This document shows, piece after piece, positions 1,431 to 44,491 of a DNA stretch of 64,000 bases. Position 1 is the first letter of the stretch. Each line of letters begins with the position of its first letter. The notes below the pieces were generated by a model. It was not told the DNA's origin and did no database searches. It saw nothing but the letters and a program-made list of their open reading frames with translations. The DNA comes from Gammaproteobacteria bacterium (GTDB lineage: Bacteria; Pseudomonadota; Gammaproteobacteria; Pseudomonadales; Halieaceae), in contig JAUHYL010000001.1 in assembly GCA_030426545.1 (NCBI GenBank), forward strand, positions 124,001 to 188,000, given 5' to 3'. The translations under genes were made by a program, and so were the position numbers.

Positions 1431-2699
1431 TTAACGTCCCTCCGCTTCGGACGCCGGCCTGGCATCATAAACACCTGTGCGCCCGAAGCCAGCGGCATCC
1501 AGCTCGGCATTGCTACTCGCGGTCGCCTCATTTACCACGAAAGCCGGAAGCGCGGAGATCTGATATTGCGTGGAGATGGAGCGACAGCGGCCCGTAGCGG
1601 GATCGGGGTCCGCATCGGCGAATTCGTATAGGGCCTGATAGGCCCCCTCACAGGTATATCCAAGGACAAACGCCTTGCCGATGGCCGAACCGGCGCGCAG
1701 CCGCAGCGGCGCAAGGTTGCCGGTGCCGTCAGTGCCGTTGCGAAAACTGTAATTGTAGTTGTAGAGGTCTTCGACATTGGTATACCCAGCGAGGTAACCG
1801 TCCATGACACCCTCATCATCGAGGATCATGTGCAGGCGCGCATCGTCCAGCGGCCTGTCGAGCCGGATGCTGTTGACCACCCACTCAATGCGCACATCTA
1901 CTGGATCGGTAGTAAGCACACCGCCGCTAATCCGCCCAGTTGTACGCGCCTGGAAGCGCGGGTCCTGATGCAGTGCGTAAGTAGCGTAGGGCAACGGCTC
2001 GCGGTTGGGACTGAGCTGAATGGGGTCGGCACTGGCGAAGATACCAACCTGCACCTCGTCGTCATTCGCGATGTCATCGACGCCGTCCAGTGTAATCAGC
2101 ATGCCCCAGGAGCCTGAGAGCATCTCAAGTTCAAACGAGTTAGACAGCCCGGTTGACTGGTACTGCGCGGAACACCCCACAACGCGGTAGTACTGATTGT
2201 CGATACCGCTCTCACCGTTCATGCCGGCAAAATCGTCGTGTGGGCAGGCATCTTGCACAGCGGGTCCGTCGACAGAGGACGTTGCTCCATCCATATCAAT
2301 ACCGAACACGGGCACGTTCTCGCCGGTTACGACGCGGAATCCAGGGTCCTCTCTGCCCAACTCGGGATTCATGCAGAGATTGCGCACGGACTCAGCGCCG
2401 AAAGCCACGCCGAATAAGCGTTTGAGATGCTCGTCCTCGCTTTCGCCGTCACGCTGTTGCAACCCATCATGCACGATAAACACCTCGCTCTTATCGGCGT
2501 AGCCGGTTGTCATCCCCTCTGGACAGCCGGCGTTTTCTTCCGCATCCGCGGCGAGCGCGTAGCGAATACTGGACACGACAAAGCCCGCTGAGCCATCGAC
2601 CAGGAACTCAGCTTCTGCCCGTGCCTGGACCGTTGTGAACAACAACGCGCACAACAATGCGCAGAACAATGATTTAGCGCATATGACGTTACTGATCAT
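1431..2699 (-). CDS. secreted protein of unknown function, 422 aa
   Basis: This protein begins with a clear signal peptide (residues 1 to about 29, hydrophobic core LFCALLCALLFTTVQARA) and is otherwise acidic and soluble with several cysteines (for example CPEG, CMNP, CPHD, CEGAY, CRS), suggesting a periplasmic or extracellular disulfide-bonded protein. No domain is recognised. It lies one base upstream of the DUF1592-like gene, so the two are almost certainly one operon. The start ATG at 2697-2699 overlaps a copy of the island-wide palindrome, so operator binding could cover the start region. The role in the island is unknown; binding or presentation of a hydrophobic substrate is only a guess. 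Confidence 0.7.
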   Translation of the reverse strand: MISNVICAKSLFCALLCALLFTTVQARAEAEFLVDGSAGFVVSSIRYALAADAEENAGCPEGMTTGYADKSEVFIVHDGLQQRDGESEDEHLKRLFGVAFGAESVRNLCMNPELGREDPGFRVVTGENVPVFGIDMDGATSSVDGPAVQDACPHDDFAGMNGESGIDNQYYRVVGCSAQYQSTGLSNSFELEMLSGSWGMLITLDGVDDIANDDEVQVGIFASADPIQLSPNREPLPYATYALHQDPRFQARTTGRISGGVLTTDPVDVRIEWVVNSIRLDRPLDDARLHMILDDEGVMDGYLAGYTNVEDLYNYNYSFRNGTDGTGNLAPLRLRAGSAIGKAFVLGYTCEGAYQALYEFADADPDPATGRCRSISTQYQISALPAFVVNEATASSNAELDAAGFGRTGVYDARPASEAEGR

Positions 2700-2734
2700 T
2701 CAACACCACTATTCATTTCATTCAACACCACTAT
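2698..2734. promoter_or_regulatory. TetR-type operator copy plus a repeated half-site
   Basis: Positions 2698-2720 fit the 23-bp palindrome seen throughout the island: left half ATTCAACACCA, centre C, degenerate right half TATTCATTTCA. The 15-mer ATTCAACACCACTAT is repeated exactly at 2698-2712 and 2720-2734, a direct repeat with a 22-bp period. It overlaps the start codon of the secreted-protein gene. The regulatory role is inferred from recurrence elsewhere. Confidence 0.5.
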
Positions 2735-2869
2735 GTCGGCGGCATCCGCCGCGTGCCAATAGATACCTGTCATACCGAGCTTTCAACGCAACGGCGAGCC
2801 GCGGGTAAAGTCGATCGTCGTAAGGTCGATCTGCAGCGCACTGATACACGATTTTGCAGCACTCGATGA

Positions 2870-3274
2870 CTAGTGGAGTCCGACCACCTCGTAGTCGCGC
2901 GATTGAAATAGCCATTCACCGTCGACCTTCACGTACTCGTCGTGAAAACAACCGATCAATAGTTTCTGTTCACCATCTTTCGGGAAAATAAGCTCGCGGC
3001 AGTAGGTCGCACCGCTCGCACGGTCGCCCTGAAAGTCAAGGTTATCTGGAAAACCGACCATATGGATGTGCTCGACATAGCCTAGCTTCTCGCTAAACAC
3101 CTCGCGGATCTTGTCGCGGCCGCGCGTGCCGTCTGGCACCGACGGCAGTGTCCACACGCCGTCCTGCGCGAACGTGCCCGCGAAACGCTCCGCATCGATG
3201 CGAATTACCGCGGCGCTGAAACGTTCGATCAGCTCGCGTATTGCAAGCCTGTCCTCCACAGAACCTTTACTCAT
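2870..3274 (-). CDS. SnoaL-like (NTF2-fold) protein
   Basis: This 134-aa protein has the SnoaL_4 layout: helical start EDRLAIRELIERFSAAV, then IDAERFAGTFAQDGVW, a central GRDKIREVF helix and a final WLFQSRDYEVVGLH strand. The fold is used by small isomerases, cyclases and dehydratases, and also by beta subunits of ring-hydroxylating oxygenases. The gene follows the Rieske alpha-subunit gene by 21 bp in the same operon. It may be a minimal structural partner of that oxygenase or an enzyme acting on its product; at 134 aa it is shorter than classical beta subunits (about 160-190 aa). Family call confident, role not. Confidence 0.8.
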   Translation of the reverse strand: MSKGSVEDRLAIRELIERFSAAVIRIDAERFAGTFAQDGVWTLPSVPDGTRGRDKIREVFSEKLGYVEHIHMVGFPDNLDFQGDRASGATYCRELIFPKDGEQKLLIGCFHDEYVKVDGEWLFQSRDYEVVGLH

Positions 3275-3295
3275 TATTCCCCCTACAGTGCGCAG

Positions 3296-4696
3296 TCAGT
3301 CGACCAGGTAGCGGTCCAGCTCCTGGTGCATGTTCAAAATGATCTTCTCATTGTATGAAGCGAGCCAGTTCTGCTTCATTGCGCCCGTTCGCATCCCCCG
3401 TTGCAAGCGCGGAATATTGCCAAGGTCCTGGCGGGGAATTTCGTACACCTGCTCGGGGTCGTCAGTATCAGTAACCTGTATCTGCTCGGCGCGCTGGCGG
3501 GGAGCGCTGGCCGGCAGCGTGCGCGTGGAGAAGATCTCAAATGTGCAGCGATTTGGATCATTGCGGTGTGGAATCGCGCGGTACATCATCATATTCCCGC
3601 CGTGAAACAACATACAGATATTGGGGAACATGAAGATTTCGCCGCCCCACATTTCCAGGACATCCGGTTCGGGCGCGCCCAGAGGTCTTTCTTTGGCAGC
3701 CGCGTCGCCGTACAGCGCTTTGACATACTCAGCACCGAGCGTAGACCCCTCCGGGATCTCCTTCCCCTTCATCGAACGCACAATATCCACATCCGGCTGC
3801 AATACCTGGGCGTCCATACCGTCAACCAACAGCTGCAGACGATCCGCCATCGCATCGACCGGGTCGACGGGATTGACCATACGCATCTCACCCTGCATCG
3901 CCGTTTGCTTACCGGCATAGAAGCGGCCGTGCCCGCGCTCAAAAGCGTCGTAAGCAACGGCGTGGTGGCTGAAGTGAAAGTCACCCTCAATGTTCTCGCC
4001 GTAGATGAATTCGGCGCCATCCGGCTCTAGCTGTGGATGCGTTGCCGGCACATGGTAGCCTTCAAAAAACGCTTCCTGTGCGGTCTTCCAGTTGGCCTCC
4101 ACATCGATTTTTTTCCACCAATAATGGCGCATCTCACCGACAATCAACTTCTCCATCAACTCCTTAATCGGTGCGATAAAGTGCTCGAAGGGCTGCGGCT
4201 CCTCGGCAAAATTGATGAACACCATGCCCTCGTACTCAACACAGTGTATGGCGGCCAGCGGCACATCACTGGCCAGCAACTTGCCCTGCTTGAATTCTTC
4301 ACGCGCTAACACGTACTGGTTTTCGCCCGCGGTGTTCCAGCGCCAACCGTGGAAGGGGCAAATAATATTCCCATGGGGAAAGGTACCCTGTTCTTCCGCC
4401 AGCGCAGTGCCGCGGTGCGGACAGAAATTGTGATAGGCGCGAATAGTGTTCGCATTCTCACGCACCACGATGACGGAGCTATCGCCAATCTCGTACAGCG
4501 TGTAATCGTTGGGCTCGGGTATCGCATCCACCCGGCAGGCAACCTGCCAGACCTTACTCCAGAGTTTCTCGTATTCGAGTTTCAAAAAGTCGGCGTCGGT
4601 GTAACGGCCGATGCGAATTCCGTGGGGCATCGTACGCCAGTCGGGGGGCAGTTCCTCGCCGGAACCGCGTTTCTTGTCTATTGCTTCAACGCTCAT
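3296..4696 (-). CDS. Rieske non-haem iron oxygenase, alpha subunit (first of three)
   Basis: A 466-aa ring-hydroxylating oxygenase large subunit. The Rieske [2Fe-2S] ligands are C92, H94, C113 and H116 (CPHRG ... CPFHGW), and the mononuclear iron histidines are H215 and H220 in EGYHVPATH. Such enzymes insert oxygen from O2 using electrons from a ferredoxin/reductase chain. No ferredoxin, reductase or classical beta-subunit gene lies in the window, so electrons must come from elsewhere and the enzyme may be a homo-oligomer. The C-terminal half is diverged from the other two Rieske proteins here, so it probably acts on a different intermediate. A copy of the shared operator lies 34 bp upstream, and a SnoaL-like gene follows. 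Confidence 0.93.
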   Translation of the reverse strand: MSVEAIDKKRGSGEELPPDWRTMPHGIRIGRYTDADFLKLEYEKLWSKVWQVACRVDAIPEPNDYTLYEIGDSSVIVVRENANTIRAYHNFCPHRGTALAEEQGTFPHGNIICPFHGWRWNTAGENQYVLAREEFKQGKLLASDVPLAAIHCVEYEGMVFINFAEEPQPFEHFIAPIKELMEKLIVGEMRHYWWKKIDVEANWKTAQEAFFEGYHVPATHPQLEPDGAEFIYGENIEGDFHFSHHAVAYDAFERGHGRFYAGKQTAMQGEMRMVNPVDPVDAMADRLQLLVDGMDAQVLQPDVDIVRSMKGKEIPEGSTLGAEYVKALYGDAAAKERPLGAPEPDVLEMWGGEIFMFPNICMLFHGGNMMMYRAIPHRNDPNRCTFEIFSTRTLPASAPRQRAEQIQVTDTDDPEQVYEIPRQDLGNIPRLQRGMRTGAMKQNWLASYNEKIILNMHQELDRYLVD

Positions 4697-4729
4697 AGCC
4701 TACTCCAGGTCCCTTCAATACGGCCCTTT

Positions 4730-4752
4730 ATTGAACACCACTGTTGTATTAA
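4730..4752. promoter_or_regulatory. TetR-type operator copy upstream of the first Rieske gene
   Basis: The 23-bp core reads ATTGAACACCA, C, TGTTGTATTAA, matching the recurrent half-site WATAAWCAnCA and its complement with a one-base spacer. It lies 34 bp before the ATG of the minus-strand Rieske gene, a usual position for a repressor overlapping a promoter. Confidence 0.6.
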
Positions 4753-4839
4753 ATATCAAGGGAAACCCCATTGTGCCCGGCCACTCGCTCCAGTAAAGCC
4801 CGGACGCGTGATCGGCAAAAGCCGCTAACAATCCGCACA

Positions 4840-4869
4840 CGGCCACGTCGTTCGATAACGACGTGGCCG
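4840..4869 (-). terminator. perfect 13-bp hairpin downstream of the TonB receptor gene
   Basis: A perfect inverted repeat (CGGCCACGTCGTT, loop CGAT, AACGACGTGGCCG) lies about 37 bp after the receptor stop codon. Its stem is GC-rich, as in an intrinsic terminator, but no clean T-run follows on the minus strand, so it may instead be an mRNA-stabilising hairpin or work with Rho. Confidence 0.6.
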
Positions 4870-4905
4870 CTGTATCAACCAGACGGAAAGGACCCCGATC
4901 GGCAA

Positions 4906-7530: not shown

Positions 7531-7783
7531 TTTATTCTCCTGTAGTCGAATCGTTTCTGCGGTAGTCAACGACCAGCCGATTACTTACTCATATAGCGTG
7601 CAAGACTGCGACATCTCTGCACAACAACAGCATTACACTCGCGGGCACTGCCTCCTATCCAGTCACGCCGCCCTTCGCGGCACAGCCCGACCAATTACGA
7701 CATTCCCTGTCCGCACCGCCCGAACAAAACAAGCCGGGCATGCATCTTCATTTAAATGGAAGAGACGGGACTCTTCATGCGCG

Positions 7784-8590
7784 TTACGCACCCAACTTCT
7801 GTGACAACCCCCGCGCAGCTTCCGATAACGATTCGCCAATAAGCTCCACCCGCCCCGCCTCAAGGTCCGCACCAAGCGCCAGCGCAACAACAGCGTGAGC
7901 AGGCACGTCCTGATCCTTCCAGACTGGCGCGGCCAGCACGGAAATTCCTTCGATGTAATTTCCGGCGTCCAGCGCAAAGCCCCGTTGCCGGGTTTCGGCA
8001 ACCTGCAAAAGCCAGCTTTCGAACAAGGGCGGGTTGTCCCAGCGCAAATTCGTGAAGCGCTGGCCAAGTTCCGCCTCGGAATAACTGCCAAAAGCGGCAA
8101 TACAACGACCGGTCGCGCTGATAAGAGCGGGAAAGCGGCTGCCAACATCGGCACTCAGATGAAAATTACCCGACGCTTTAGCCGTTGCAACGACAACTAT
8201 GTGATCAAGTCCTACAATCTGCACACCGAGCGTGGTCACACCCAGATCGCGGCTCAGTTCGTTCAGATACGGCTGTACAAGGTCGGGAAATGAGTTTTGC
8301 TTAAGCCACTGCCGCGCGAGCGTTAACACGCCCGCTTCCAGGCTGTAGCGTTTGGTTTCAGCCTCAACCGCTACCATCTCCTCCGCGACCAGAGCACGCA
8401 GGGTGTAGAGGCAAGTACTTGGCACGAGACCCAGCGCGGAAGCAATGGCCTGCAGCGTGAGGGGCCCTTCGCTTTTGCCCAGCAGGCGCAAAATGGCTGC
8501 CGCGCGGGAAATAGCGGGCGCCTTGCTTTCGCGCACGCTCTTGTCCAACCGGCGTCGGTCGCGAGCGCTGCCTGACACGACTGCTGTCAT
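7784..8590 (-). CDS. IclR-family transcriptional regulator
   Basis: A 268-aa protein with an N-terminal winged helix (residues about 27-95: AISRAAAILRLLGKSEGPLTLQAIASALG, then STCLYTLRALV) and a C-terminal effector-binding domain (SRFPALISATGRCIAAFG, RGFALDAGNYIEGISVLAAPVW). IclR proteins sense small carbon compounds such as aromatic acids or their catabolites. The gene starts at ATG 8590 with a GGAGAAG ribosome site and is divergent from the acyl-CoA ligase operon at 8762. The 171-bp gap holds AT-rich direct repeats that could be its operator and one copy of the TetR-type palindrome, so that operon may answer to two regulators. It could also control the TonB receptor downstream. Confidence 0.9.
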   Translation of the reverse strand: MTAVVSGSARDRRRLDKSVRESKAPAISRAAAILRLLGKSEGPLTLQAIASALGLVPSTCLYTLRALVAEEMVAVEAETKRYSLEAGVLTLARQWLKQNSFPDLVQPYLNELSRDLGVTTLGVQIVGLDHIVVVATAKASGNFHLSADVGSRFPALISATGRCIAAFGSYSEAELGQRFTNLRWDNPPLFESWLLQVAETRQRGFALDAGNYIEGISVLAAPVWKDQDVPAHAVVALALGADLEAGRVELIGESLSEAARGLSQKLGA

Positions 8591-8651
8591 CGTTGGAGCT
8601 TCTCCTGTCTGGGCTGCAAGCGTGAACCCAACTGCACAACGGACTCACTTT

Positions 8652-8690
8652 AAATTCAACATATAAAATTAAATTCGATATATACAAATT
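8652..8690. promoter_or_regulatory. candidate IclR operator (AT-rich direct repeat)
   Basis: Two adjacent near-copies lie in the divergent promoter region: AAATTCAACATATAAAATT at 8652-8670 and AAATTCGATATATACAAATT at 8671-8690. They lie 62 to 100 bp before the regulator's own start codon. IclR proteins commonly bind AT-rich repeated sites near their own gene; assignment is by position. Confidence 0.4.
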
Positions 8691-8708
8691 ATACTAACCT
8701 ATGCCACA

Positions 8709-8731
8709 ATTCAACACCACTGCTGATTAAT
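8709..8731. promoter_or_regulatory. TetR-type operator copy upstream of the first ligase operon
   Basis: The core reads ATTCAACACCA, C, TGCTGATTAAT, the same left half as at 2698. It ends 30 bp before the ATG at 8762. Confidence 0.55.
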
Positions 8732-8761
8732 AACTTATTTTTCTAACCACGCCCATCGAAT

Positions 8762-15430: not shown

Positions 15431-15453
15431 TATAAACATCACTGTTGATTATA
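15431..15453. promoter_or_regulatory. TetR-type operator, best copy in the window
   Basis: TATAAACATCA, centre C, TGTTGATTATA: 9 of 11 positions of the half-sites are symmetric. It lies 22 bp before the ATG of the flavoprotein monooxygenase gene. It serves as the reference for all other copies. Confidence 0.7.
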
Positions 15454-15475: not shown

Positions 15476-17329
15476 ATGATCAATGCCAAATACCCTGGCC
15501 TGCCCGACGCAACCGAGATCGATATCAACGCGTTAAAGGCAAAATACCGGGTTGAACGCGATAAACGCATGCGCGGCGACGGCCAGAACCAGTACGTGGA
15601 GCGCGTCGATGAAGTTGCCCTCACCTACGAAGCCGACCCCTACACCCCGGACACGCCGCGCGAGCCACTGGACGAGGACATCGATGTCGCAGTACTCGGC
15701 GGTGGCTGGTCTGGCATTATGGCCGGCGTGCAGTTGCGCAAGAGGGGATTCACCAATTTTCGCAATATCGACCACGCGGGGGACTTCGGTGGCGTGTGGT
15801 ACTGGAATCGCTACCCTGGCCTGCAGTGTGACAACGACGCGTACTGTTACCTGCCAATGCTGGAAGAAATGGGCTTCATGCCGTCGAAGAAGTTTACCGA
15901 CGGCCGTGAAATTCGCGAGTACGCGCAGAGCATCTGCCGCCGCTTCGAGCTGTACCAAAACGCCCTCTTCCACACCATAGTGCAGTCCGTACGCTGGGAC
16001 GAAAGCATCAAGCGCTGGCGTATCAGCACCCAGCAGGGTGACGACATCCGCGCGCGTTTTGTCATTCTGGCGAACGGACTGTTGAACATCCCGAAGCTGC
16101 CCGGCATTCCCGGCATCGACAAGTACCAGGGCAAAATGTTCCACACCGCGCGTTTCGATTACGACTACACGGGGGGCAGCGAAGAAGAGCCCGTACTCGA
16201 CCAACTCGCCGACAAGCGCGTGGCGCTGGTTGGCACCGGCGCGACCGCTATACAGCTCACACCCTTCCTCGGTCGTTATGCGAAGCAGTTCTACCTGTTA
16301 CAGCGCACGCCCTCCTGCGTCGACTCGCGCAGGAACACCGAAACCGATCCCGAGTGGGTGAAAACCCTGCAACCTGGCTGGCAGGCGGAGCGGCGCGCGA
16401 ATTTCCACCGCGGCGCTAATGAATCGCTGCTGCCCGGCGAAATGGACCTTATTCGTGACATCTGGACCGAGGTGAACTGCAACCTCTCCGCCGAGCTGGA
16501 AGAGCAGGACTGGCCGGAACTCAGCATGGAAGAGTTTATGGCGCGTTACGAGGAGATGGACTTTCGCGTAATGGAACGCCTGCGCCACCGCGTCGACGAG
16601 ATCGTCGACGACCCCGCAACCGCACAATTGCTCAAGCCCTGGTACCGCTACCAGTGCAAGCGCCCCACCTCCAACGATGAGTACTACCAGACTTTTAACC
16701 GGCCCAACGTCAAACTTATCGACGTGTCCGAGACACAGGGAGTGGAGCGACTCACCGAGAGCGGCTTTATCGCGGGCGGCGTGGAGTACGAGGTCGACTG
16801 CATCATGTTCGCCAGCGGCTATGAGGTAACCAGCGACCTGGAACGCCGCTGGGGCATACCGGTATTTGAAGGACGCGATGGTGTGTCCATTTACGACCAC
16901 TGGCGCGGCGGCTACAAAACACTGCACGGCATGATGACGAGCGGCTTTCCCAACCTGTTCACCTGCGGCCTGTACCAGGGTTCACTCAACTCCACCTTTA
17001 CCTACAACTTCGAGGCGCAGGTCGAGCACATGGTCCACATCATGCAGGCCGTATTGGATCGGGGCGCCGTTGCAGCCGAAGTGACGGAAGAAGCGCAGGA
17101 TGCTTATGTCTCGCACCTTCGCGCCACGGAGGTTGACCGCACAGAATGGATTCGGGACTGCACGCCAAGCTACTTCAACAACGAGGGGAAGCCGGACGTT
17201 GACGAAAACGGCAACGAGAAGTACCGTTTTTACCTCGGCGAACTCTATGGCCCCGGCTGGGACGCCTTCATGCAGTTGCTACAGGACTGGCGTGACGCGG
17301 GGGATCTTGCCGGGCTTTCTCTGGACTAG
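15476..17329 (+). CDS. FAD/NAD(P)H-dependent monooxygenase, Baeyer-Villiger-like
   Basis: A 617-aa flavoprotein with two Rossmann motifs, GGGWSG (residues 75-80) for FAD and GTGATA (253-258) for NADPH, flanking a Baeyer-Villiger-type signature at about 217-228, YQGKMFHTARFD. The signature keeps G and H but has phenylalanine where W is usual. A 70-residue N-terminal extension resembles the long-chain/steroid and macrocyclic ketone monooxygenase branch. The expected reaction is insertion of oxygen next to a ketone to make an ester or lactone, a classic ring-opening step; N- or S-oxygenation cannot be excluded. ATG 15476 has GGAG upstream. It is a single-gene unit under the best operator copy. 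Confidence 0.88.
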   Translation: MINAKYPGLPDATEIDINALKAKYRVERDKRMRGDGQNQYVERVDEVALTYEADPYTPDTPREPLDEDIDVAVLGGGWSGIMAGVQLRKRGFTNFRNIDHAGDFGGVWYWNRYPGLQCDNDAYCYLPMLEEMGFMPSKKFTDGREIREYAQSICRRFELYQNALFHTIVQSVRWDESIKRWRISTQQGDDIRARFVILANGLLNIPKLPGIPGIDKYQGKMFHTARFDYDYTGGSEEEPVLDQLADKRVALVGTGATAIQLTPFLGRYAKQFYLLQRTPSCVDSRRNTETDPEWVKTLQPGWQAERRANFHRGANESLLPGEMDLIRDIWTEVNCNLSAELEEQDWPELSMEEFMARYEEMDFRVMERLRHRVDEIVDDPATAQLLKPWYRYQCKRPTSNDEYYQTFNRPNVKLIDVSETQGVERLTESGFIAGGVEYEVDCIMFASGYEVTSDLERRWGIPVFEGRDGVSIYDHWRGGYKTLHGMMTSGFPNLFTCGLYQGSLNSTFTYNFEAQVEHMVHIMQAVLDRGAVAAEVTEEAQDAYVSHLRATEVDRTEWIRDCTPSYFNNEGKPDVDENGNEKYRFYLGELYGPGWDAFMQLLQDWRDAGDLAGLSLD

Positions 17330-17402: not shown

Positions 17403-17425
17403 AGTAGACACCGTTGTTGATTATA
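17403..17425. promoter_or_regulatory. TetR-type operator copy upstream of the second Rieske operon
   Basis: The right half TGTTGATTATA is exact; the left half AGTAGACACCG is weaker; the centre base is T. It sits about 240 bp before the gene start, an unusual distance because a tandem-repeat tract lies between. Confidence 0.55.
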
Positions 17426-17665: not shown

Positions 17666-19039
17666 ATGGACAAACGCATTGAAATTAGTGAAAGAGACCT
17701 TGAAGAAGCATTGACCTACCCCGTCGATGCCTTCATCTGCCCCGAGTACGCAAGGGCGGAGCAGGAACTGCTGTGGCCCAAAATTTGGCAGATGGCCGGT
17801 CGCGAGGAGGACCTGCCGGAAGTCGGCAGTTTTTTCACGTACAACATCGCAGATGAATCGATAATCATCCTGCGCTCCGCACCAGAGACGCTCAAGGCTT
17901 TCTACAACGTCTGCCCGCACCGGGGACGCCAACTGATCAACACACCGGACGATTGCAACCAGGTTCGCGGTCGCAAGCCCAACTTCGTCTGCGGCTTCCA
18001 CGGTTGGAGCTATGACCTGGACGGCCAGAACTGCTTCGTGCTTGACCCGGAAGACTGGAAGGGTGCGCTGAATGCCGAGCGCACCTGTCTGTCGGAATTG
18101 AAGGTCGACACCTGGGGCGGCTGGATCTACATCAACATGGACCCGGACTGCGAACCATTGCGGGATTTCCTGGAACCGGCCGCCGGCATACTGGATCACT
18201 TTCAATTCGAGAAGATGCGTTACAAGTGGCGACAGTGGTCCGTCTACCCCTGCAACTGGAAGACGGCTATTGAAGCCTTCATGGAGCCGTACCATGTTAC
18301 TGGCACGCACAGTCAACTGTTAAAGTACGGCGAGTACTACGCCTACAGCAAAGCCTTCGGCATGCACAGCGTCAGCGGCTTCGACGAGCGCGACTCTTCG
18401 CGGAAGAACAGCCAGAGCACTTCCGTTACGCGCGCAGGTTCCGGCTCAGACCCACGCATCTCAACGTACGAACTGATACGCGAAAACTATGAAACCCTGA
18501 ACTACTCTGCAGGGACCGATACTCTCGTTGCCGCAGCCAGTCGACTGGCGGATGAACTGCCGGAGGGCACCCCCGCCGACCAGGTTATCGCGCACATGAT
18601 GGCGTCGGCAAAAGCCGATGATGCCGAGCGCGGCATCATCTGGCCGGAAATTCCGCCGGAGGTCATGGCAGAAGCCGGCCTGGCGTGGACACTATTTCCC
18701 AACCAGACAATCCTGCAGGGTGTGACTTTCGCGTTGTGTTATCGCACACGACCGTACGGTGATGACCCGAATAAGTGCATCTTCGAATCCTACGCGCTGG
18801 AGCGCTACCCTGAGGGCGAGGAGCCTACCACCGAGTGGGTACAGGCCGAACCTACCGCCGAGAAGTGGGGCGCAGTGCTGGCGCAGGATTTTTCCAACAT
18901 GGAGTGGGTGCAGCGCGGCATGAAATCACGCGGTTTTCGCGGCACGCTACCCAATCCGCACCAGGAACGCAAAATTACCAATTTCCACCGCGTCCTGTCG
19001 CAGTACATGGGGCGCGGCCATCTCAGCCACCTGGAGTAG
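17666..19039 (+). CDS. Rieske non-haem iron oxygenase, alpha subunit (second)
   Basis: A 457-aa oxygenase large subunit with Rieske ligands C83, H85, C109, H112 (a longer-than-usual loop, RGRKPNFVCGFHGW) and iron-site H210 and H215 in EPYHVTGTH. It shares layout, the long Rieske loop and a similar C-terminus (LAQDFSNMEWVQRGMKSRG) with the third Rieske protein, so the two are paralogues; the first is more distant. ATG 17666 follows AGAGGGAACC. It is first in an operon with a ThDP enzyme and a VOC protein. Regulation probably involves the upstream operator and perhaps the 14-bp array in its leader. No dedicated ferredoxin or reductase is seen. Confidence 0.93.
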   Translation: MDKRIEISERDLEEALTYPVDAFICPEYARAEQELLWPKIWQMAGREEDLPEVGSFFTYNIADESIIILRSAPETLKAFYNVCPHRGRQLINTPDDCNQVRGRKPNFVCGFHGWSYDLDGQNCFVLDPEDWKGALNAERTCLSELKVDTWGGWIYINMDPDCEPLRDFLEPAAGILDHFQFEKMRYKWRQWSVYPCNWKTAIEAFMEPYHVTGTHSQLLKYGEYYAYSKAFGMHSVSGFDERDSSRKNSQSTSVTRAGSGSDPRISTYELIRENYETLNYSAGTDTLVAAASRLADELPEGTPADQVIAHMMASAKADDAERGIIWPEIPPEVMAEAGLAWTLFPNQTILQGVTFALCYRTRPYGDDPNKCIFESYALERYPEGEEPTTEWVQAEPTAEKWGAVLAQDFSNMEWVQRGMKSRGFRGTLPNPHQERKITNFHRVLSQYMGRGHLSHLE

Positions 19040-23884: not shown

Positions 23885-23907
23885 TATAAGCAGCATTGTT
23901 GATTATT
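23885..23907. promoter_or_regulatory. TetR-type operator copy in the divergent ligase/Rieske promoter
   Basis: TATAAGCAGCA, centre T, TGTTGATTATT; 8 of 11 half-site positions are symmetric. It is about 75 bp before the Rieske start and could govern both directions. Confidence 0.65.
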
Positions 23908-26540: not shown

Positions 26541-26554
26541 TAGGGAGTCGCAAC

Positions 26555-29967: not shown

Positions 29968-29990
29968 AATGAACAACGCTGTTGGATATG
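29968..29990. promoter_or_regulatory. TetR-type operator copy upstream of the E1/lipoyl operon
   Basis: AATGAACAACG, centre C, TGTTGGATATG: a weaker copy, 80 bp before ATG 30071. Confidence 0.45.
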
Positions 29991-30070: not shown

Positions 30071-32086
30071 ATGTCACATGACCTTGGGATAGACAACGAT
30101 ACCCTGTGCGAGATCTACACCCAGGTAGCGCGCATTCACCAGGTGGACAGGGCTATCCAGTCCGGCCTCTCCAGCGGCAAGTTCCAGTTCACCTACTGGC
30201 CCCTGACCGGCCAGGAAGGCATCCCGGCCTCGATTGCCCCTCTGGTGACCAGCGACGACCACATGGTGACCATCTACCGCGGTATTCACGACCAGGTCGC
30301 GAAGGGTGTGCCGCTAAAAGGGCTTTTCGCCGAGGCGCTGGGCCGCATCGACGGCGTGAACAAGGGCAAGGGCGGCTCGCCGCATATCTCCGACCCCGAC
30401 TCCGGCTCGATGTTGACCACTGCAATCGTGGGCGCCGGCGCGCCGATAGCCAACGGCATCGCGCTAGCCAGCAAGATGCGCGGCACCGATGCGGTCACCA
30501 TCGTGAACTTCGGTGACGGCGCCACCAGCATCGGTGCGGTACACGAGGCCATGAACCTGGCCGGACTCTGGAAGCTTCCCGTGATCTTCCTGTGCCAGAA
30601 CAACCAGATGGGCGAATACACGCGCATTCCCGACTACACCGCCAGCGAGGACTTCGCCAGTCGCGCCGCAGGGTACGGCTTCAGGGGCGTTATTCTCGAC
30701 GGCAACGATGTCGTCGCATTCCACAAGGGCATGAAGGAGGCTATCGCCGACGCACGCTCGGGCAACGGCCCTGTGTTCGTCGAGGCCCGCACCATTCGCC
30801 TGGGCCTCCACGCCGGCGTGGGCGACACCAACCACCTGTCGGAAGAAGATCTGGCGGCAGCAAAGGAAACCTGGCCCGTGCCGCGCACCCGCAAACTCCT
30901 GTTGGACAACAGCATCTGCACTGAGGAGGAACTCGCGGCAATCGACGCGGCGGCGGAGACTGAGGTCAAGGAGGCAATCGAGTGGGCCATGAACTGCGAG
31001 CCCACTGGCGCAGATGAGATGCTGCTGGACGTGTATGCCGACCCGACAGTTGCGCCGCGCCGCGGCCAACGCGAACAACGCGCAGCGGAAGAAACCCACA
31101 CCGGCGAAACGCGCGAGCTGCCCATGTTCCAGGCCATCCAGGATGCCCAGGAAACGGCGCTGGAACTGGACCCCGACGTGTTTTTCCTGGGTGAGGACAT
31201 CGGAGAATCCGGCGGCGTGTTCCGCTGCTTCCAGGGCCTGCAGGAAAAGTACGGCGAACGAATTCGTCCCACTCCAATCGCCGAGCAGGCCATCATGGGC
31301 GCGGCCACTGGCGCCGCGATCATGGGCCTGCGGCCCGTCGCGGAGATCATGTTCTGCGACTTCATGGGCGTGGCCATGGACCAGATCGCCAACCACACCG
31401 CGAAGCAGCGCTACATGTCCGGCGGCAAGACACACGTACCGCTGACGGTACGCACGGTGGCCGGCGCCGGCATCGGTGGCTTCGGCGCGCAGCACTCACA
31501 ATCGACGGAGGCCTGGCTATTGCACACGCCCGGGCTCAAGGTCGTTTACCCGAGCACACCCAGCGAGGCCAAGGGCCTGCTCCTGAGCTGTATTTTCGAC
31601 GACGATCCGTGTGTGCAGTATGAATCCATGATGCTGACTTATTCAACGCAGGAGGAGGTGCCGGTAGGCGACTACCGCGTCCCCATCGGCGTGGCCAAAG
31701 TGAAACGCGAGGGCGCAGACATTTCACTGATTACGTATGGCTGGCAGGTCATGCAGTGCCTGAGTGCGGCCGAGGAACTCGCCAAGGAAGGCATCAGCGC
31801 CGAGGTTCTGGACCTCCGCACTTTGATGCCTCTCGACTACGACCGCATTTTCGCATCGGTGGAGAAAACCGGCAGGGCACTGGTCGTACACGCGGCAACG
31901 GAGTTCTGCGGCCTCGGCGCCGAGATCGCCTGCACGCTGAATGATACCCTGCAAGGCCAGCTAAAGACTCCCGCGTCGCGCTTTGGCGCTGCCTACGCAC
32001 CCATCGCTTTTGCCAAGCCCATTGAAACAGAGCAGATTCCACACGCTGGCACCATCGCCGCGCGGGTGCGTGAGATGCTGAAGTAA
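30071..32086 (+). CDS. fused alpha-beta ThDP dehydrogenase E1 component
   Basis: This 671-aa protein joins two usually separate E1 subunits. Residues 1 to about 330 are the alpha part with the ThDP motif GDGATSIGAVHEAMN...QNN; residues about 345-671 are the beta part with FLGEDIGESGGVFRCF, RPTPIAEQAIMGAATG and the transketolase C-terminal domain. Such E1 enzymes (pyruvate, acetoin, branched-chain type) decarboxylate a 2-oxo acid or cleave an acyloin and transfer the acyl group to lipoyl-lysine. The next gene encodes just a lipoyl domain, and no E2 catalytic core or E3 lies in the window. Which oxo acid is used is unknown; related fused E1s serve acetoin and similar substrates. Confidence 0.92.
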   Translation: MSHDLGIDNDTLCEIYTQVARIHQVDRAIQSGLSSGKFQFTYWPLTGQEGIPASIAPLVTSDDHMVTIYRGIHDQVAKGVPLKGLFAEALGRIDGVNKGKGGSPHISDPDSGSMLTTAIVGAGAPIANGIALASKMRGTDAVTIVNFGDGATSIGAVHEAMNLAGLWKLPVIFLCQNNQMGEYTRIPDYTASEDFASRAAGYGFRGVILDGNDVVAFHKGMKEAIADARSGNGPVFVEARTIRLGLHAGVGDTNHLSEEDLAAAKETWPVPRTRKLLLDNSICTEEELAAIDAAAETEVKEAIEWAMNCEPTGADEMLLDVYADPTVAPRRGQREQRAAEETHTGETRELPMFQAIQDAQETALELDPDVFFLGEDIGESGGVFRCFQGLQEKYGERIRPTPIAEQAIMGAATGAAIMGLRPVAEIMFCDFMGVAMDQIANHTAKQRYMSGGKTHVPLTVRTVAGAGIGGFGAQHSQSTEAWLLHTPGLKVVYPSTPSEAKGLLLSCIFDDDPCVQYESMMLTYSTQEEVPVGDYRVPIGVAKVKREGADISLITYGWQVMQCLSAAEELAKEGISAEVLDLRTLMPLDYDRIFASVEKTGRALVVHAATEFCGLGAEIACTLNDTLQGQLKTPASRFGAAYAPIAFAKPIETEQIPHAGTIAARVREMLK

Positions 32087-35691: not shown

Positions 35692-36468
35692 TCATTCCGC
35701 GGGAATCCATTGCGCGCTCATGGCCTCGGGTGACAGGTACTTGGTCGTGGACCAACCACCGTCCACCACAATAGTCTGGCCGTTGATGTGAGTCGCCCCA
35801 GGTGAACAGAGAAACGCAATCGTACTCGCCACGTCATCGACAGTGCCGAGTCGCGGCGACGGGGTCATCTCGGTATTCATGCGGCGAAAGCCCTCGTCGT
35901 CCAGCCGCGTCCGCACCATATCGGTCACGGTAACGCCGGGAGCTACACAGTTCGAGCGGATGCCCTGCGCGCCGTACTCGCATGCCATGTGCAGGGTAAG
36001 GGAGGTGAGGCCACCCTTGGCCGCTGAGTAGGCGCCGCCACGGCGGCCGCCCACCACCGCGAAGGTGGATGTAACGTTGACTATCGCGGAACCGGGCTGC
36101 ATGTGCACAATGGCATCCCGCGCAAGGCGGAACGGAGCCCGCAGCATCACGCCCAGGAAGTTGTCCAGCATGGCATCGTCGGTTTCGTGCAGAGGTTTGG
36201 GACTGCCAAGTCCCGCGTTATTAATCAGCAAGTCGATGCTGCCGAAGCGAGTGAGGGCCAGGTCCACGATGGCCTCCGGCGCTTCATCGACGGCAATATC
36301 GACAGCGAGTGTCGCCAAGCGCTCCGGGTCGCCTATTTCGGCTTCAAGGGTGGCAAGTTTGCCTGCGTCGCGACCGACGCCCACGATCGCGGCGCCGTTG
36401 TCGTACAGTTGCCTGGCGGTTGCCAGGCCGATACCGCTACCCGCACCCGTGATGATGGCTACCTGCAT
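35692..36468 (-). CDS. short-chain dehydrogenase/reductase (second intact)
   Basis: A classical 258-aa SDR: TGAGSGIG at residues about 7-14, LLINNAGLG, catalytic serine in NVTSTFA and YSAAKGG (YxxxK), and a C-terminal INGQTIVVDGG. The family oxidises alcohols or reduces ketones with NAD(P). It is the first gene of a minus-strand operon with SMP-30-like and MaoC-like genes, divergent from a ligase gene. Supplying the ketone for the monooxygenase is a possible role. Confidence 0.92.
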   Translation of the reverse strand: MQVAIITGAGSGIGLATARQLYDNGAAIVGVGRDAGKLATLEAEIGDPERLATLAVDIAVDEAPEAIVDLALTRFGSIDLLINNAGLGSPKPLHETDDAMLDNFLGVMLRAPFRLARDAIVHMQPGSAIVNVTSTFAVVGGRRGGAYSAAKGGLTSLTLHMACEYGAQGIRSNCVAPGVTVTDMVRTRLDDEGFRRMNTEMTPSPRLGTVDDVASTIAFLCSPGATHINGQTIVVDGGWSTTKYLSPEAMSAQWIPAE

Positions 36469-36533: not shown

Positions 36534-36556
36534 TATAGTCACCGGTGTTGATTATT
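36534..36556. promoter_or_regulatory. TetR-type operator copy in the SDR/ligase divergent promoter
   Basis: TATAGTCACCG, centre G, TGTTGATTATT. It lies 66 bp from the SDR start and 60 bp from the ligase start, so it could control both operons. A perfect 16-bp palindrome CCCAGCCCGGGCTGGG (36496-36511) lies beside it. Confidence 0.6.
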
Positions 36557-36595: not shown

Positions 36596-36628
36596 ATGAA
36601 TGAAAACGTACGGCAATGGACACATTGA
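36596..36628 (+). other. short leader reading frame overlapping the ligase start
   Basis: ATG 36596, placed 8 to 12 bp after a good AGGGAG, begins a ten-residue frame ending TGA at 36628. It overlaps the ligase ATG at 36616 in another frame. The best ribosome site thus serves this frame, suggesting translational coupling or a frameshift in the original N-terminus of the ligase. Confidence 0.3.
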
Positions 36629-38226
36629 CAGCTGAGCGGCGTGAAATAGCGGGGTACTCAGTCCGCTGGGACGGTGCGCGTGCCGCGAACGCTTACGCGG
36701 CGGGGCACTGGGTTCGCGGGACTCTGGTAGTGGCCTTGGAGAGGGCCGCGCGCGAGGAACCGCAACGCGTGCTGGTCATTGAGGGCGATACCGCGCTGAA
36801 CGCGGGGACCCTGTACCGCCGGGCGACCGCCCTTGCCGGTGTGCTGGCCTCGCGTTTTCCCGCAGGCAGCGTCGTGTCCTTCATGCTGCCTAACTGGCAC
36901 GAGGCGGCCATCATTTACCTTGCCACTACACTGGCGGATATGGTCGCGCACCCGGTGCTGCCGTCGCTGCGCGAACGCGACCTGACCTTTATGCTCGCCG
37001 ATGTGAAGAGCCGCATGCTGTTCATCCCCGCTCGGTTTCGCGGCCACGACTACGTAGCGATGCTGGACACTGTGGTAAGCAATCTCGAAACACCGCCAGA
37101 GGTGGTGGTGTTGCGCGGTGACTACGGTACGCACTCAAAGTTCAACGACCTGATCATTGATGCGCGCGCTGACATCAAACCGTCACTCGATCCGGATGCC
37201 GTGCGCATGATCATGCACACCTCTGGCACGACGGGCAGGCCGAAGGGCGTGATGCACAGCCACAATTCCCTGCATGCATTGATCCGGCAGATCGGTGACC
37301 ACTGGCAGGTCGAAATGCGCGACCGCTTCCTGGTGGCCTCTCCCATCAGCCATATAGGCGGTTCGATCTACGCTTTCGAATGCCCGCTGCTACTCGGCAC
37401 AACTGCGGTTTTGATGGAACAGTGGAACGCGACGGACGGCATTGAACTACTTCGAGACAAACGCTGCACGCACTTCGCCGGTGCAACGCCGTTCCTGGTG
37501 CAAACATTGGAAGCCGCTCGGATGGCAGGAACAAGACTACCTGAACTGAAGGTGTTCATTTGCGGAGGCGCCTCGGTACCGCCTTCGTTAGTGCGCGAGG
37601 CGGCCGACTACTTTGATCGGGCGGTCGTCACGCGCGTCTACGGTTCCACCGAGGTACCCGTGACGACGGTAGGCGTACTGGAGCCAGCTGACACCGAGCA
37701 CGCCGCAGAGACCGATGGCAGGACCGCCATCGCCGACATTCAGCTCGTGGAGGGTGAGGTCTGTGTAAAAGGACCGCAAATGTTCCTCGGGTATCTGCAC
37801 AGCGAGGACGAAGACGGCGCGTTCAACGACAATGGCTACTATCGCACGGGTGACATGGGACAATGGGTGGACGAGCACTACCTGGTGATTACGGGACGCA
37901 GCAAGGACATCATCATCCGCAACGGCGAAAACATCGCGCCCAAGGAAGTGGAGGATCTGCTGGTACAGCACCCGGACATCAAACAGGTCGCGATAATCGG
38001 CGTGCCCGACCCTGACACGGGCGAGCGCGCGTGCGCAGTGATCGTGCCTAGCGGTGACCGGAGTCCGAGACTTGAGGAACTGGGCGTGTTCCTGTCAGAC
38101 CTCGGCATCGCGCGCTTTAAAATCCCTGAACGTCTGGAACTGCGTGATACCTTGCCCACGAATGACGCGGGCAAGGTGCTCAAGCATCGACTGAAGGACA
38201 TGCTCGTAGAAAATCAGAGCCCGTAA
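36616..38226 (+). CDS. AMP-forming acyl-CoA ligase (fourth)
   Basis: A 536-aa ANL ligase with canonical MHTSGTTGRPKGVMHSH, VTRVYGSTEVPVTTVG, NGYYRTGDMGQWVDEHYLV and the C-terminal PTNDAGKVLKHRLKDML. The arrangement is reminiscent of ligases for alicyclic acids (cyclohexanecarboxylate type), but substrate cannot be read from sequence. ATG 36616 lacks its own ribosome site and overlaps a short upstream frame. The 3' end overlaps the convergent gene at 38214 by 13 bp. Confidence 0.9.
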   Translation: MDTLTAERREIAGYSVRWDGARAANAYAAGHWVRGTLVVALERAAREEPQRVLVIEGDTALNAGTLYRRATALAGVLASRFPAGSVVSFMLPNWHEAAIIYLATTLADMVAHPVLPSLRERDLTFMLADVKSRMLFIPARFRGHDYVAMLDTVVSNLETPPEVVVLRGDYGTHSKFNDLIIDARADIKPSLDPDAVRMIMHTSGTTGRPKGVMHSHNSLHALIRQIGDHWQVEMRDRFLVASPISHIGGSIYAFECPLLLGTTAVLMEQWNATDGIELLRDKRCTHFAGATPFLVQTLEAARMAGTRLPELKVFICGGASVPPSLVREAADYFDRAVVTRVYGSTEVPVTTVGVLEPADTEHAAETDGRTAIADIQLVEGEVCVKGPQMFLGYLHSEDEDGAFNDNGYYRTGDMGQWVDEHYLVITGRSKDIIIRNGENIAPKEVEDLLVQHPDIKQVAIIGVPDPDTGERACAVIVPSGDRSPRLEELGVFLSDLGIARFKIPERLELRDTLPTNDAGKVLKHRLKDMLVENQSP

Positions 38227-39449: not shown

Positions 39450-39459
39450 GGGCTCTCCC

Positions 39460-40275: not shown

Positions 40276-40291
40276 TGGCCCCCCTGTTCGT

Positions 40292-41449: not shown

Positions 41450-41451
41450 CC

Positions 41452-42573
41452 TCAGCCCCCCGTCGTGAGTCGCAGCAGTTCATCCTCGGCCGCGCGCACG
41501 TTGTCCGGCGAATGCGCGCCGTAGGCCAGGCCCGCCATACCGCCATAGTCCAGGATTTTCGGTACGCGCAAGCCCGCATCACAGTAACCCTTGACGATTC
41601 GCGCCACCTCCTTCGGGGTACCGTGGGGCACCATATCCAGCACGGCCTGTGGCTCGACCTTGTCGAGGAAGTCCAGGATGCGCTCTCGGGTCAGCTCGCC
41701 CGGATCAATGTCCTGGTAACCGCGCCAGCCGTCGCCCATCGGATGCGCGTGGCCGAGCTTCGCGAGTTCCGCCGCCGAGATCTGCAGCAGGATTGCCTTT
41801 ACCAACGGCGCTTTAAGAATTTCGTGCAGTTCATCCTCGTCGCCAATCAGGCAGGTCATGATAAACGCGGGCACGATGGCTTCGGGGTCACGGCCGGCGC
41901 GCTCTGCCGACGCGTGAATTACCCCCAGCTTGGCCGCGTAGTCCTCGGGCGACCATGCACCCGCCGGCCACCAACCGTCGGCGTAGCGGCCAGTAATGTC
42001 GAGCATGCGCGGCCCGCTCGCACCAATCCAGATCGGCGGACAGCGGCCGCCACAGAGTTCGGTATCCAGTCGCGCGTGGCGCAGTTCGAAAAACTGCCCT
42101 GTAAAATCTACCGGACCTTCGCTCTCCCACAACATCCGAATGACGCGCAGGGCTTCCTCGAACCGACTGACGGGTTTGTTGAAGTCAAAACCGTAAGGAA
42201 CGGTATTTTCCGTCTCTCCGCTGCCCAGGCCCAGGATAAAACGCCCGCCCGAGAGGTGATCGATGGTCAGCGCCGTCTGCGCCAGCAGCGACGGATGACG
42301 CCGCACCGTGTCTACGACACTCGTTGCAATCGGCACGTTCTGTGTGAGCACGGCGGCCGCACCCGCGACAGCCATAGCATCGAGATGGCGGTGAGGAGAC
42401 GGCGACACGGTCGCGAGGTCGGTGAACTCCTCGGTCCAGATCGAGTCCGGCCAAAAGCTCACCATGTGGTCGGGCAGCCAGATGGAGTGGTAGCGCCCAC
42501 TATCCAGGGCATCGATCTGGTCGATACCCAGCGGCAAAGTGGTGCGCAGGAATGCGGCGGGCTGGACCTTCAT
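41452..42573 (-). CDS. luciferase-like (LLM) flavin/F420-dependent oxidoreductase
   Basis: ATG 42573 behind GAGGAGG gives 373 aa. Bacterial-luciferase-like barrel features are SIWLPDHMVSF, TALTIDHLSGGRFILGLGSG and SRFEEALRVIRMLWES. Proteins with this GLGSGE-type pattern include F420-dependent ketoreductases of mycobacteria and FMN-dependent monooxygenases; both cofactors are possible. F420 use would be unusual for a gammaproteobacterium and no F420 biosynthesis gene is here. It heads the operon with the sulfotransferase and has an operator copy 87 bp upstream. Confidence 0.88.
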   Translation of the reverse strand: MKVQPAAFLRTTLPLGIDQIDALDSGRYHSIWLPDHMVSFWPDSIWTEEFTDLATVSPSPHRHLDAMAVAGAAAVLTQNVPIATSVVDTVRRHPSLLAQTALTIDHLSGGRFILGLGSGETENTVPYGFDFNKPVSRFEEALRVIRMLWESEGPVDFTGQFFELRHARLDTELCGGRCPPIWIGASGPRMLDITGRYADGWWPAGAWSPEDYAAKLGVIHASAERAGRDPEAIVPAFIMTCLIGDEDELHEILKAPLVKAILLQISAAELAKLGHAHPMGDGWRGYQDIDPGELTRERILDFLDKVEPQAVLDMVPHGTPKEVARIVKGYCDAGLRVPKILDYGGMAGLAYGAHSPDNVRAAEDELLRLTTGG

Positions 42574-42659
42574 GGCGGCCTCCTCATTGATAGTTACATC
42601 CCGGGACTGAACGGGCACCCCGCGAAGAACTGGCAAGCGCAGGAAGCAAAAACGATAAT

Positions 42660-42682
42660 ACAAATCAACAGTGATGTATATC
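42660..42682. promoter_or_regulatory. TetR-type operator copy in the LLM/phosphoesterase divergent promoter
   Basis: On the plus strand ACAAATCAACA, centre G, TGATGTATATC. It lies between two divergent units and could control both. Confidence 0.6.
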
Positions 42683-42737
42683 TGGGTTCATAGCGGTACA
42701 ATCACTGCCTTCACTTATAACCTTGCGCAGGCACTTC

Positions 42738-43790
42738 ATGTTGACTCTCATGCAAACCAGAGTTGGCCTGGCAGGCACATTGCTTGTTTTGTTCACGGCT
42801 CTGGGCGCCTGCAGCACCCGGCACTACTCCATCGAGGCGGACATACCCTACTCGGGCGGTCAATTCCCCACGGACGAAGACGCCTTCCAGTTCGCGATCG
42901 TGGGCGACCGCACCGGCGGACACCGCCCCGGTGTATTTGAACGAGCAGTAGCGCAGATTAACCTGCTGCAGCCCGAGTTCGTGGTGGGCGTTGGTGACCT
43001 GATCGAGGGCTACAGCGATGACCGGCAAAAACTCGAGCGTGAATGGGATGAGTCCGACGCCATCGTGGAACGCCTGGATATGCCCTTCTTCTATACTGTA
43101 GGCAATCACGATATCGGCAACGAACTGAGCCGCAACATGTGGCGAGAACGCCTCGGTCGCGACTACTACGCCTTTATATATCGGGACGTATTGTTCCTGT
43201 CACTGAATACAGAGGACCCGCCGGTAATCCTGCCGCCGGAGGCTCTTGCCGGACAGACGCGGCTGGAGGCAATGATGCGCAAAGATCCTGCCAGTGTGAT
43301 GGAGATGCTGCGCAGGCGGCGCGCGGAAATCGGCACCACCACCGCCCCACCCCGACTGCCGGGTTCTGTTGCCATCAGCGACGCCCAGATCGATTGGGTC
43401 GCCGCGACGCTGGCGCGCCACGCGAACGTCCGCTGGACGATAATCCTGATGCACAAACCCGCGTGGGAATATGACAGTGTGGCCTTCGAGCGCATCGAGG
43501 CGCTACTGGCCGAACGGCCCTATACGGTCGTCGCAGGCCACGAACACTATTACAACTACACCAAACGAAGGGATCGCGATTACATCACCATGGCGACGAC
43601 TGCAGGCATCTGGCTCAACGAAGACGGCGGCGCATTCGATCACATTGCCTGGGTGACGATGACCGGAAACGGCCCGTTGATTACCAACATCGCACTGTGT
43701 GGCCTTCTGGGAACTCCAGAGCAGACGCAGGAACTAATCACATCGGAAACGGCGGACAGGTATTGCTTGAGGCCCAGTGCAGTGTATTAG
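42738..43790 (+). CDS. calcineurin-like metallophosphoesterase lipoprotein
   Basis: ATG 42738 gives 350 aa with a lipoprotein signal (LFTALGAC lipobox, cysteine near residue 21). Metallophosphoesterase motifs follow: FAIVGDRTGGH, GVGDLIEGY, TVGNHDI, ILMHKPAW and VVAGHEHYYNY, the dimetal-binding D, H, N and H residues. It is exported and lipid-anchored, probably hydrolysing phosphate esters at the envelope. It may serve substrate release or phosphate handling; the link to the pathway is only by shared promoter region. Confidence 0.9.
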   Translation: MLTLMQTRVGLAGTLLVLFTALGACSTRHYSIEADIPYSGGQFPTDEDAFQFAIVGDRTGGHRPGVFERAVAQINLLQPEFVVGVGDLIEGYSDDRQKLEREWDESDAIVERLDMPFFYTVGNHDIGNELSRNMWRERLGRDYYAFIYRDVLFLSLNTEDPPVILPPEALAGQTRLEAMMRKDPASVMEMLRRRRAEIGTTTAPPRLPGSVAISDAQIDWVAATLARHANVRWTIILMHKPAWEYDSVAFERIEALLAERPYTVVAGHEHYYNYTKRRDRDYITMATTAGIWLNEDGGAFDHIAWVTMTGNGPLITNIALCGLLGTPEQTQELITSETADRYCLRPSAVY

Positions 43791-43808
43791 CACCTCGGGA
43801 CAGGTGGT

Positions 43809-44480
43809 TCACCCTTCGTCGAGCAGGGCCTGTAGTTCTGGAAACGCCTCCGCGCGCATAGTGCCATGCAATGTCAGCCGCAGCACCTCCCGGCTCATTC
43901 TGTGCGACATGGCGTTGCGCTCCTTTTTTGTCCTGGCCTTGGAACGCACCCACACCGGCCACAGGAAATAACCCGCGAGCATCAACACGGACAAAACTTC
44001 GGCGTCGACCCCCGGTTCACTGACATCAGATGCTGTCATCGCTGCCGTGGACTTATGGAAGTGACTGAAAAACACGTCGTCTTCAGGGTTGTCACTGGAG
44101 AGCATTTCAAACAACCAGATCCTGCCCAGCTCGGGGTTTTCGACGGCAAACGTCGCAAGACCATTGATAACCTCGTACATTGCCTTCGGATTATCAGCGA
44201 TTGACGTGTCCGGTCGTGCCTCGCCACCTAGAATGTTCTCAGACAGATGCCGGCTCACCCACTGTACCGTAGCCTTGATTAGATCTTCGCGGGTTTCGAA
44301 ATGCTGGTAGGCAGTGCCGCGGTTTACGCCTGCGAGGTGGGCGACCTTCGAGAGGCTGAGACCGTCAGGGCCGTCTGAGGCCAGCACCGTGCGTGCGGCA
44401 GCTATTATGTCCTCACGTGTCGCCTCGGGGTCGCGGCGCCTTCTGCCAGTCGCGGAACGCTCTGCCAAATTAATCACCAA
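43809..44480 (-). CDS. TetR-family regulator, candidate master repressor of the island
   Basis: A 223-aa protein with an N-terminal helix-turn-helix (SLSKVAHLAGVNRGTAYQHF, residues about 42-61) and a helical ligand domain ending in a segment with YFLWPVWVRSKARTKKER. The first available start is TTG 44480; an in-frame TAA lies just upstream, and GTG 44477 or a later codon may be used. A copy of the island palindrome (44469-44491) overlaps this start, typical of autorepression. The same palindrome is in front of most catabolic units, so this protein or its paralogue next door probably binds them, released by a pathway CoA ester or substrate. Confidence 0.92.
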   Translation of the reverse strand: MVINLAERSATGRRRRDPEATREDIIAAARTVLASDGPDGLSLSKVAHLAGVNRGTAYQHFETREDLIKATVQWVSRHLSENILGGEARPDTSIADNPKAMYEVINGLATFAVENPELGRIWLFEMLSSDNPEDDVFFSHFHKSTAAMTASDVSEPGVDAEVLSVLMLAGYFLWPVWVRSKARTKKERNAMSHRMSREVLRLTLHGTMRAEAFPELQALLDEG

Positions 44481-44491
44481 TGATGTTTATT
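44469..44491. promoter_or_regulatory. TetR-type operator overlapping the regulator's own start
   Basis: ATTAATCACCA, centre A, TGATGTTTATT on the plus strand; read on the minus strand the half AATAAACATCA matches the reference site at 15431 in 10 of 11 bases. This links the palindrome to the TetR gene. Confidence 0.65.

Follow-up and report, generated by a model that had tools for sequence, protein, structure and literature searches.

A catabolic island in the genome of a Halieaceae bacterium (Gammaproteobacteria; assembly GCA_030426545.1, 4.35 Mb in 141 contigs) raises the question of which regulator reads a 23-bp palindrome that recurs at its promoters, and how much of the island this regulator would control. 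The palindrome was noticed in a stretch of 64,000 nucleotides (the window), which comprises bases 124001–188000 of the 196,281-base contig JAUHYL010000001.1; positions are those of the window unless the contig is named. A preliminary description held that one palindrome marks many catabolic promoters and is most likely read by a TetR-family protein with a copy at the start of its own gene. This core idea was upheld in the present analysis. With a probability of about 0.8, the palindrome is the predicted operator of a subfamily of TetR repressors and defines an autoregulated catabolic regulon with two tandem TetR paralogues. The assignment is based on four features read from the sequence: the sites themselves, their concentration on this contig, their location next to start codons, and the way in which they accompany the TetR subfamily across species.

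All ten 23-mers first listed for the window were found at their places. A matrix built from these ten sites gave 12 sites scoring at least 16 in the 124 kb to the left of the window, compared with none in the reversed sequence, in which a single match appeared at a cut-off of 14. The left sites lie at contig positions 1233, 5102, 12738, 20223, 25930, 26807, 40812, 57378, 90754, 92348, 106046 and 112017, and the window copies correspond to 126698, 128730, 132709, 139431, 141403, 147885, 153968, 160534, 166660 and 168469. The set of 22 is defined by a score of at least 16 with the ten-site matrix; with the final 22-site matrix the copy at 126698 (window 2698) falls to 15.9. A match inside a gene at contig 77994 (14.9) and weak matches at contig 169544 (14.0) and 195706 (14.5) were excluded. 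When each of the 22 sites is read both ways, the consensus is approximately (A/T)(A/T)TAA(A/T)CAnCA-n-TGnTG(A/T)TTA(A/T)(A/T), with 24.6 bits in all. The predicted regulon spans about 169 kb of the contig, and not the roughly 40 kb originally proposed, as sites reach left beyond 2698.

Genes on the contig were called with a simple purpose-made open reading frame (ORF) caller, which returned 169 ORFs with approximate starts. All 22 sites are intergenic, in an island of which 7.9% is intergenic, and all 22 are also upstream of a gene start, a class of space that makes up 5.9%. Divergent gaps hold 13 of the sites, and the median distance from the site centre to the nearest start codon is 59 bp. 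A site is located within 270 bp of 34 of the 60 transcription-unit heads in the island. The earlier statement that almost every unit carries a copy is too broad: in the window a site marks 13 of 18 unit heads and, in addition, the TetR gene at 43809–44477, and in the left part of the island about half, 21 of 42. This TetR gene, that of regulator 1, lies 67 bp behind the gene of regulator 2 and was not counted as a unit head; the site at 44469 is at its start. Promoter boxes overlap the palindrome in 29 of 35 site–gene pairs, a placement made without a control and not used as evidence.

The possibility that the motif is as frequent in unrelated DNA was not borne out, either by the matrix on part of the genome or by the full-length pattern on all of it. 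The matrix scan covered this contig and 407 kb of other contigs of the same genome (21 stretches from six contigs), and the latter contained no site of at least 14 and two of at least 12 with the final matrix. The full 23-letter consensus, with up to three mismatches, occurs at seven places in the 4.35-Mb genome, all seven on this contig, compared with none for the reversed control. As a chance level, 2 Mb of first-order Markov sequence gave five positions above 14, two above 16 and one above 20 with the ten-site matrix. A looser 19-letter pattern was found at 51 places genome-wide, compared with 19 for its reversed control, and 19 of the 50 places listed are on this contig. In G201, a congeneric genome that gave no subfamily hit, a loose 19-letter pattern occurs at 33 places, compared with 12 for the reversed control, which indicates that palindromic patterns carry a background that the reversed control fails to remove; the conclusions are therefore based on the full-length pattern and the matrix. 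Six matches to the strict 19-letter pattern occur in this genome, all six on this contig, and none in any of the 17 other genomes sampled from the family. Across the order this strict pattern is unspecific, because it matches at least one place in 146 of 390 genomes and seven places in genome G100.

In the preliminary description, the link to the TetR protein came from the single autoregulatory position at 44469. Taken alone this is a thin argument; co-occurrence in other species makes the link strong. The subfamily is accessory: at 1e-20 it was detected in 14 of the 390 genomes sampled from the order (the top seven candidates per genome were scored), and at 1e-40 in 13 of 100 from the family. 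When one genome per species was scanned, 135 relatives were returned, the best 80 of which were kept as loci (1.42 Mb). The relatives belong to the Halieaceae, Spongiibacteraceae, Cellvibrionaceae, Nevskiaceae, Steroidobacteraceae and sphingomonads, and include a few bins labelled Rhodospirillaceae, Myxococcales and Verrucomicrobia, some of which may be binning errors. With the final matrix the 80 loci hold 102 sites of at least 16, compared with none in the reversed sequence. A site of at least 14 is present upstream of 43 of 87 genes with the helix signature, counted over 540 bp up to a point 60 bp ahead of the helix codons. The ORF caller recovered 55 of these genes, 54 of them with sufficient upstream DNA, and a site of at least 14 lies just upstream of 26 of the 54, compared with 1 of 54 in the reversed sequence. 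The same test on other genes of the same loci gave 87 of 1158, and many of these genes may themselves be targets. Because related strains do not count as independent, these numbers overstate the events; the sites at subfamily genes nevertheless vary in sequence and turn up in distinct branches of the tree.

The two candidate regulators are encoded side by side on the minus strand and are 53% identical. Regulator 1, the presumed repressor (43809–44477, 222 amino acids), matches TetR_N with 42.8 bits and regulator 2, its paralogue (44545–45246, 233 amino acids), with 43.8 bits, against a cut-off of 24. The recognition helix, VNRGTAYQHF, is identical in both, and regulator 2 has an insert in its C-terminal domain. 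These are the two close members of the subfamily in the genome, in addition to two distant partial matches. The predicted structure of regulator 1 has a mean predicted local distance difference test score of 89.2 and the two-domain all-helical architecture of TetR proteins, with helices for all main elements; its best matches in the PDB are TetR proteins, with template-modelling scores of about 0.6. A profile search found no close solved relative, the matches being mainly to the DNA-binding domain. In a tree of 96 distinct subfamily proteins, regulators 1 and 2 fall into separate supported groups, and by the cut applied, the C-terminal insert is present in 16 of the 18 rows that form the regulator-2 group. 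The position of the 44469 site, at the start of regulator 1, is conserved in relatives: five other genomes of the family (G394, G421, G431, G438 and G461) also carry the two genes as neighbours, each with a site scoring 22.5 to 26.8 where the regulator-1 gene begins. In family f29, six genomes, among them a Ketobacter, have one scored hit each; five of the six proteins pass the insert cut, the sixth groups with them, and a site of at least 25 is near the gene in all six loci. Genome G095 also has one hit, on the regulator-1 side of the tree, with a site of 21.0. As either form alone can accompany the motif, the comparison suggests that both regulators read it, and regulator 2 is a likely second reader. 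A residue-level link between recognition helix and half-site was not found in the subfamily loci; the helix is nearly constant.

From these observations we infer binding, repression rather than activation, an inducer and the use of the same site by both paralogues. In the absence of the inducer, TetR dimers would occupy the 23-bp sites and block the catabolic units over about 169 kb, as well as the regulator-1 gene itself. The inducer, which may be the pathway substrate or a coenzyme A (CoA) thioester intermediate, would bind to the C-terminal domain, upon which the dimers would release and the units would be switched on together. A bolder extension is rather doubtful: two paralogous sensors with the same helix and different ligand domains might share one operator and together act as a two-input switch for a catabolic super-regulon of 169 kb, on a contig that also bears conjugation genes, the operator code being kept from Gammaproteobacteria to Alphaproteobacteria so that mobile pathway modules arrive already wired.

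The copies in the window are as follows, with scores from the final matrix. The highest-scoring predicted operator (15431–15453; 32.4) is upstream of a flavin monooxygenase gene (15476–17329, plus strand), and the next (44469–44491; 31.9), presumed to be autoregulatory, extends over the start of regulator 1 between both TetR genes. Four lie in divergent gaps: 23885–23907 (28.6) between a ligase gene (22183–23709, minus strand) and a Rieske gene (23982–25349, plus strand); 8709–8731 (27.5) between an IclR-family regulator gene (7784–8590, minus strand; IclR_C, 54 bits) and an AMP-binding ligase gene (plus strand); 36534–36556 (26.3) between the gene at 35692–36468 (minus strand) and an acyl-CoA ligase gene (36616–38226, plus strand); and 42660–42682 (24.5) between an LLM-class oxidoreductase gene (41452–42573, minus strand) and the gene at 42738–43790 (plus strand). 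The IclR unit had been described as lacking a copy, which is incorrect, since it shares the 8709 site with the divergent ligase gene. The remaining predicted operators are upstream of a Rieske-type gene (4730–4752, score 25.8; gene 3296–4696, minus strand), of a Rieske oxygenase gene followed by a thiamine pyrophosphate (TPP) enzyme gene (17403–17425, score 23.7; oxygenase gene 17666–19039, plus strand) and of an E1-type dehydrogenase gene (29968–29990, score 19.2; gene 30071–32086, plus strand), and at the start of the gene at 1431–2699 on the minus strand (2698–2720, score 15.9). This last copy is the weakest, being self-complementary at 6 of 22 possible positions; the half-site ATTCAACACCACTAT is directly repeated 22 bases on at this place (2698–2735). 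Each of the ten was also scored across the window against a matrix built without it. Ten positions then scored better than the copy at 2698 and nine better than each of those at 29968 and 42660, and the other seven had one to seven better positions; those outscoring a left-out copy were mostly other sites. The copies at 2698, 29968 and 42660 are the least sure. A weak possible copy outside the 22 (45544–45566, contig 169544; score 13.8–14.0) lies about 300 bp upstream of regulator 2.

Several observations weigh against the assignment to the TetR subfamily. No site is present at 26 of the 60 unit heads of the island, and 44 of the 87 subfamily genes are without an upstream site, including most regulator-2-like genes of the Halieaceae. 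At the subfamily-gene loci of genomes G261 and G052 (about 3.6–3.7 kb) there is no site of at least 11; the G261 gene is regulator-2-like, and the longer locus L100 has a site 2.6 kb upstream. The strict pattern has no match in 5 of the 14 genomes that have the subfamily, and genomes G100, with its seven strict matches, and G173, with four, have no subfamily TetR hit at 1e-20. The matches in G173 and G100 may come from a different protein that reads the motif, from a gene that escaped detection or from chance, given AT-rich DNA. A rival reading assigns the motif to a different regulator of the island, for instance the TetR-like protein encoded at contig 26035–26667 or a protein of the IclR, AraC, GntR or DeoR type (the last two named by eye, without a family search), with the TetR pair as a mere target. 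The TetR-like gene has a site on either side (contig 25930 and 26807), and the 8709 site is shared by the IclR gene. However, membership of the TetR subfamily was the sole criterion for collecting the loci of other species, and these loci abound in the motif, particularly upstream of the TetR gene; the protein encoded at contig 26035 has no Pfam hit at 1e-5 and matches the KstR model only weakly (19.2 bits against a cut-off of 280). We regard this explanation as improbable. The divergent gene between its two operator copies is perhaps a second-tier regulator under the same control.

The direction of control is a further point, as activation and repression are indistinguishable from site positions alone. 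The TetR pair may activate the units, or activate some and repress others, in the manner of HapR/LuxR-type TetR proteins; LuxR is a precedent for activating TetR proteins in the available text of PMC9736018, and LuxR/HapR-type proteins rank among the many TetR structures matched by Foldseek. However, the median of 59 bp from centre to start and the copies over gene starts (2698 and 44469) fit blocking better, and the TetR proteins studied so far are mostly repressors according to the accessible part of PMC3511530, so that activation appears unlikely. The copies might, alternatively, be an intergenic repeat element spread on a mobile island and devoid of regulatory meaning, given their number on a single contig that also bears conjugation genes. 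Such an origin is highly improbable: the copies diverge at many positions yet retain both half-sites, all 22 are upstream of gene starts, and distant genera also have the motif at their TetR gene.

A TetR-subfamily operator in this role has known counterparts. KstR and KstR2 govern the cholesterol regulons of actinobacteria (PMC3068626, as far as its available text goes) and resemble the present system, as there described, in being TetR repressors with inverted-repeat operators at many catabolic promoters, negative autoregulation and two regulators per pathway region. However, the same text gives their operators as 14-bp palindromes (AnCAAGnnCTTGnT for KstR2), which the present consensus does not match, and has KstR and KstR2 controlling separate gene sets independently. 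With the KstR model (NCBIfam NF033703), regulator 2 reaches 16.5 bits against a cut-off of 280 and regulator 1 is not listed. EdcR, the oestradiol repressor of Caenibius tardaugens, likewise belongs to the TetR type and represses a catabolic cluster in which palindromes mark several promoters, its own included; the proposed palindrome, TnnCnnTACnAnTnGTAnnGnnA, at four promoters, differs from the present motif by consensus comparison (PMC8700777, accessible part). PA3973 of Pseudomonas aeruginosa, which is TetR-like, regulates genes of acyl-CoA metabolism and binds to its own promoter; its motif, SAAGRNMTGAACG, differs from the present one in a comparison at the operator level (PMC9736018, accessible part). 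No description of the motif or of this TetR subfamily was found in the open-access literature, a search that left most subscription papers uncovered. The kind of system is known, with KstR-like logic and a different operator; this member is new, large and widely distributed. For a TetR subfamily of wide distribution, the analysis provides an operator code together with a candidate regulator. Furthermore, it marks 34 of the 60 unit heads on one island as likely to be co-regulated, which can help in sorting out the genes of a large catabolic pathway that is still uncharacterised; the matrix may also be tried in Halieaceae, Spongiibacteraceae, Ketobacter, Solimonas and sphingomonads.

The genes at or behind the sites encode CoA ligases, Rieske oxygenases, the TPP enzyme, the flavin monooxygenase, an SDR, a family III CoA-transferase, the LLM-class oxidoreductase, a fused acyl-CoA dehydrogenase, a thiolase, a malonyl-CoA decarboxylase and a TauD-type dioxygenase. 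Two flavoproteins resemble 3-ketosteroid dehydrogenases below the cut-off (614.9 and 648.9 against 789), one of them in a unit with a site, and a Baeyer–Villiger-type enzyme resembles a terpenoid lactone synthase, also below the cut-off (608.5 against 1100). These enzymes give a weak hint of a substrate of the polycyclic isoprenoid kind. Steroid catabolism was weighed as a candidate and was not adopted. Elsewhere on the contig, a protein pair occurs in two copies (62641–65627 and 122395–125429); the first has DUF1592/DUF1588-type and DUF1552 domains and the second is similar by eye.

Relatives of island genes are found on plasmid pBSY17_1 of Sphingobium sp. RAC03, from an algal phycosphere, where they lie beside a subfamily TetR gene (636155–676784). 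The comparison comprised 25 of the 36 annotated plasmid genes, the other 11 (glycosyltransferases, catalase and others) being at the far end. At 1e-8, 20 of the 25 have relatives on this contig, with identities of at least 50% for 16 of the 20, and the partners are dispersed over the island. The matrix scores 26.2 upstream of the plasmid TetR gene and 18.0 before a TonB receptor gene, and only 10.2 in the gap between IclR and ligase genes that is the counterpart of 8709. The pathway genes and the regulator appear to occur in two classes, with fewer operators in the 40 kb of Sphingobium seen. At the right end of the contig, TraG_N, TraC (TraC_F_IV) and TraD-like genes (46819–55268 and contig 189522–191144) adjoin the catabolic island, which may possibly be carried by a conjugative element. 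In this conjugation region, a candidate anti-phage defence protein (PADLOC PDC-S06, E 3.9e-222) is encoded at 60117–62729 and a DEDDh-type exonuclease-like protein at 63005–63613.

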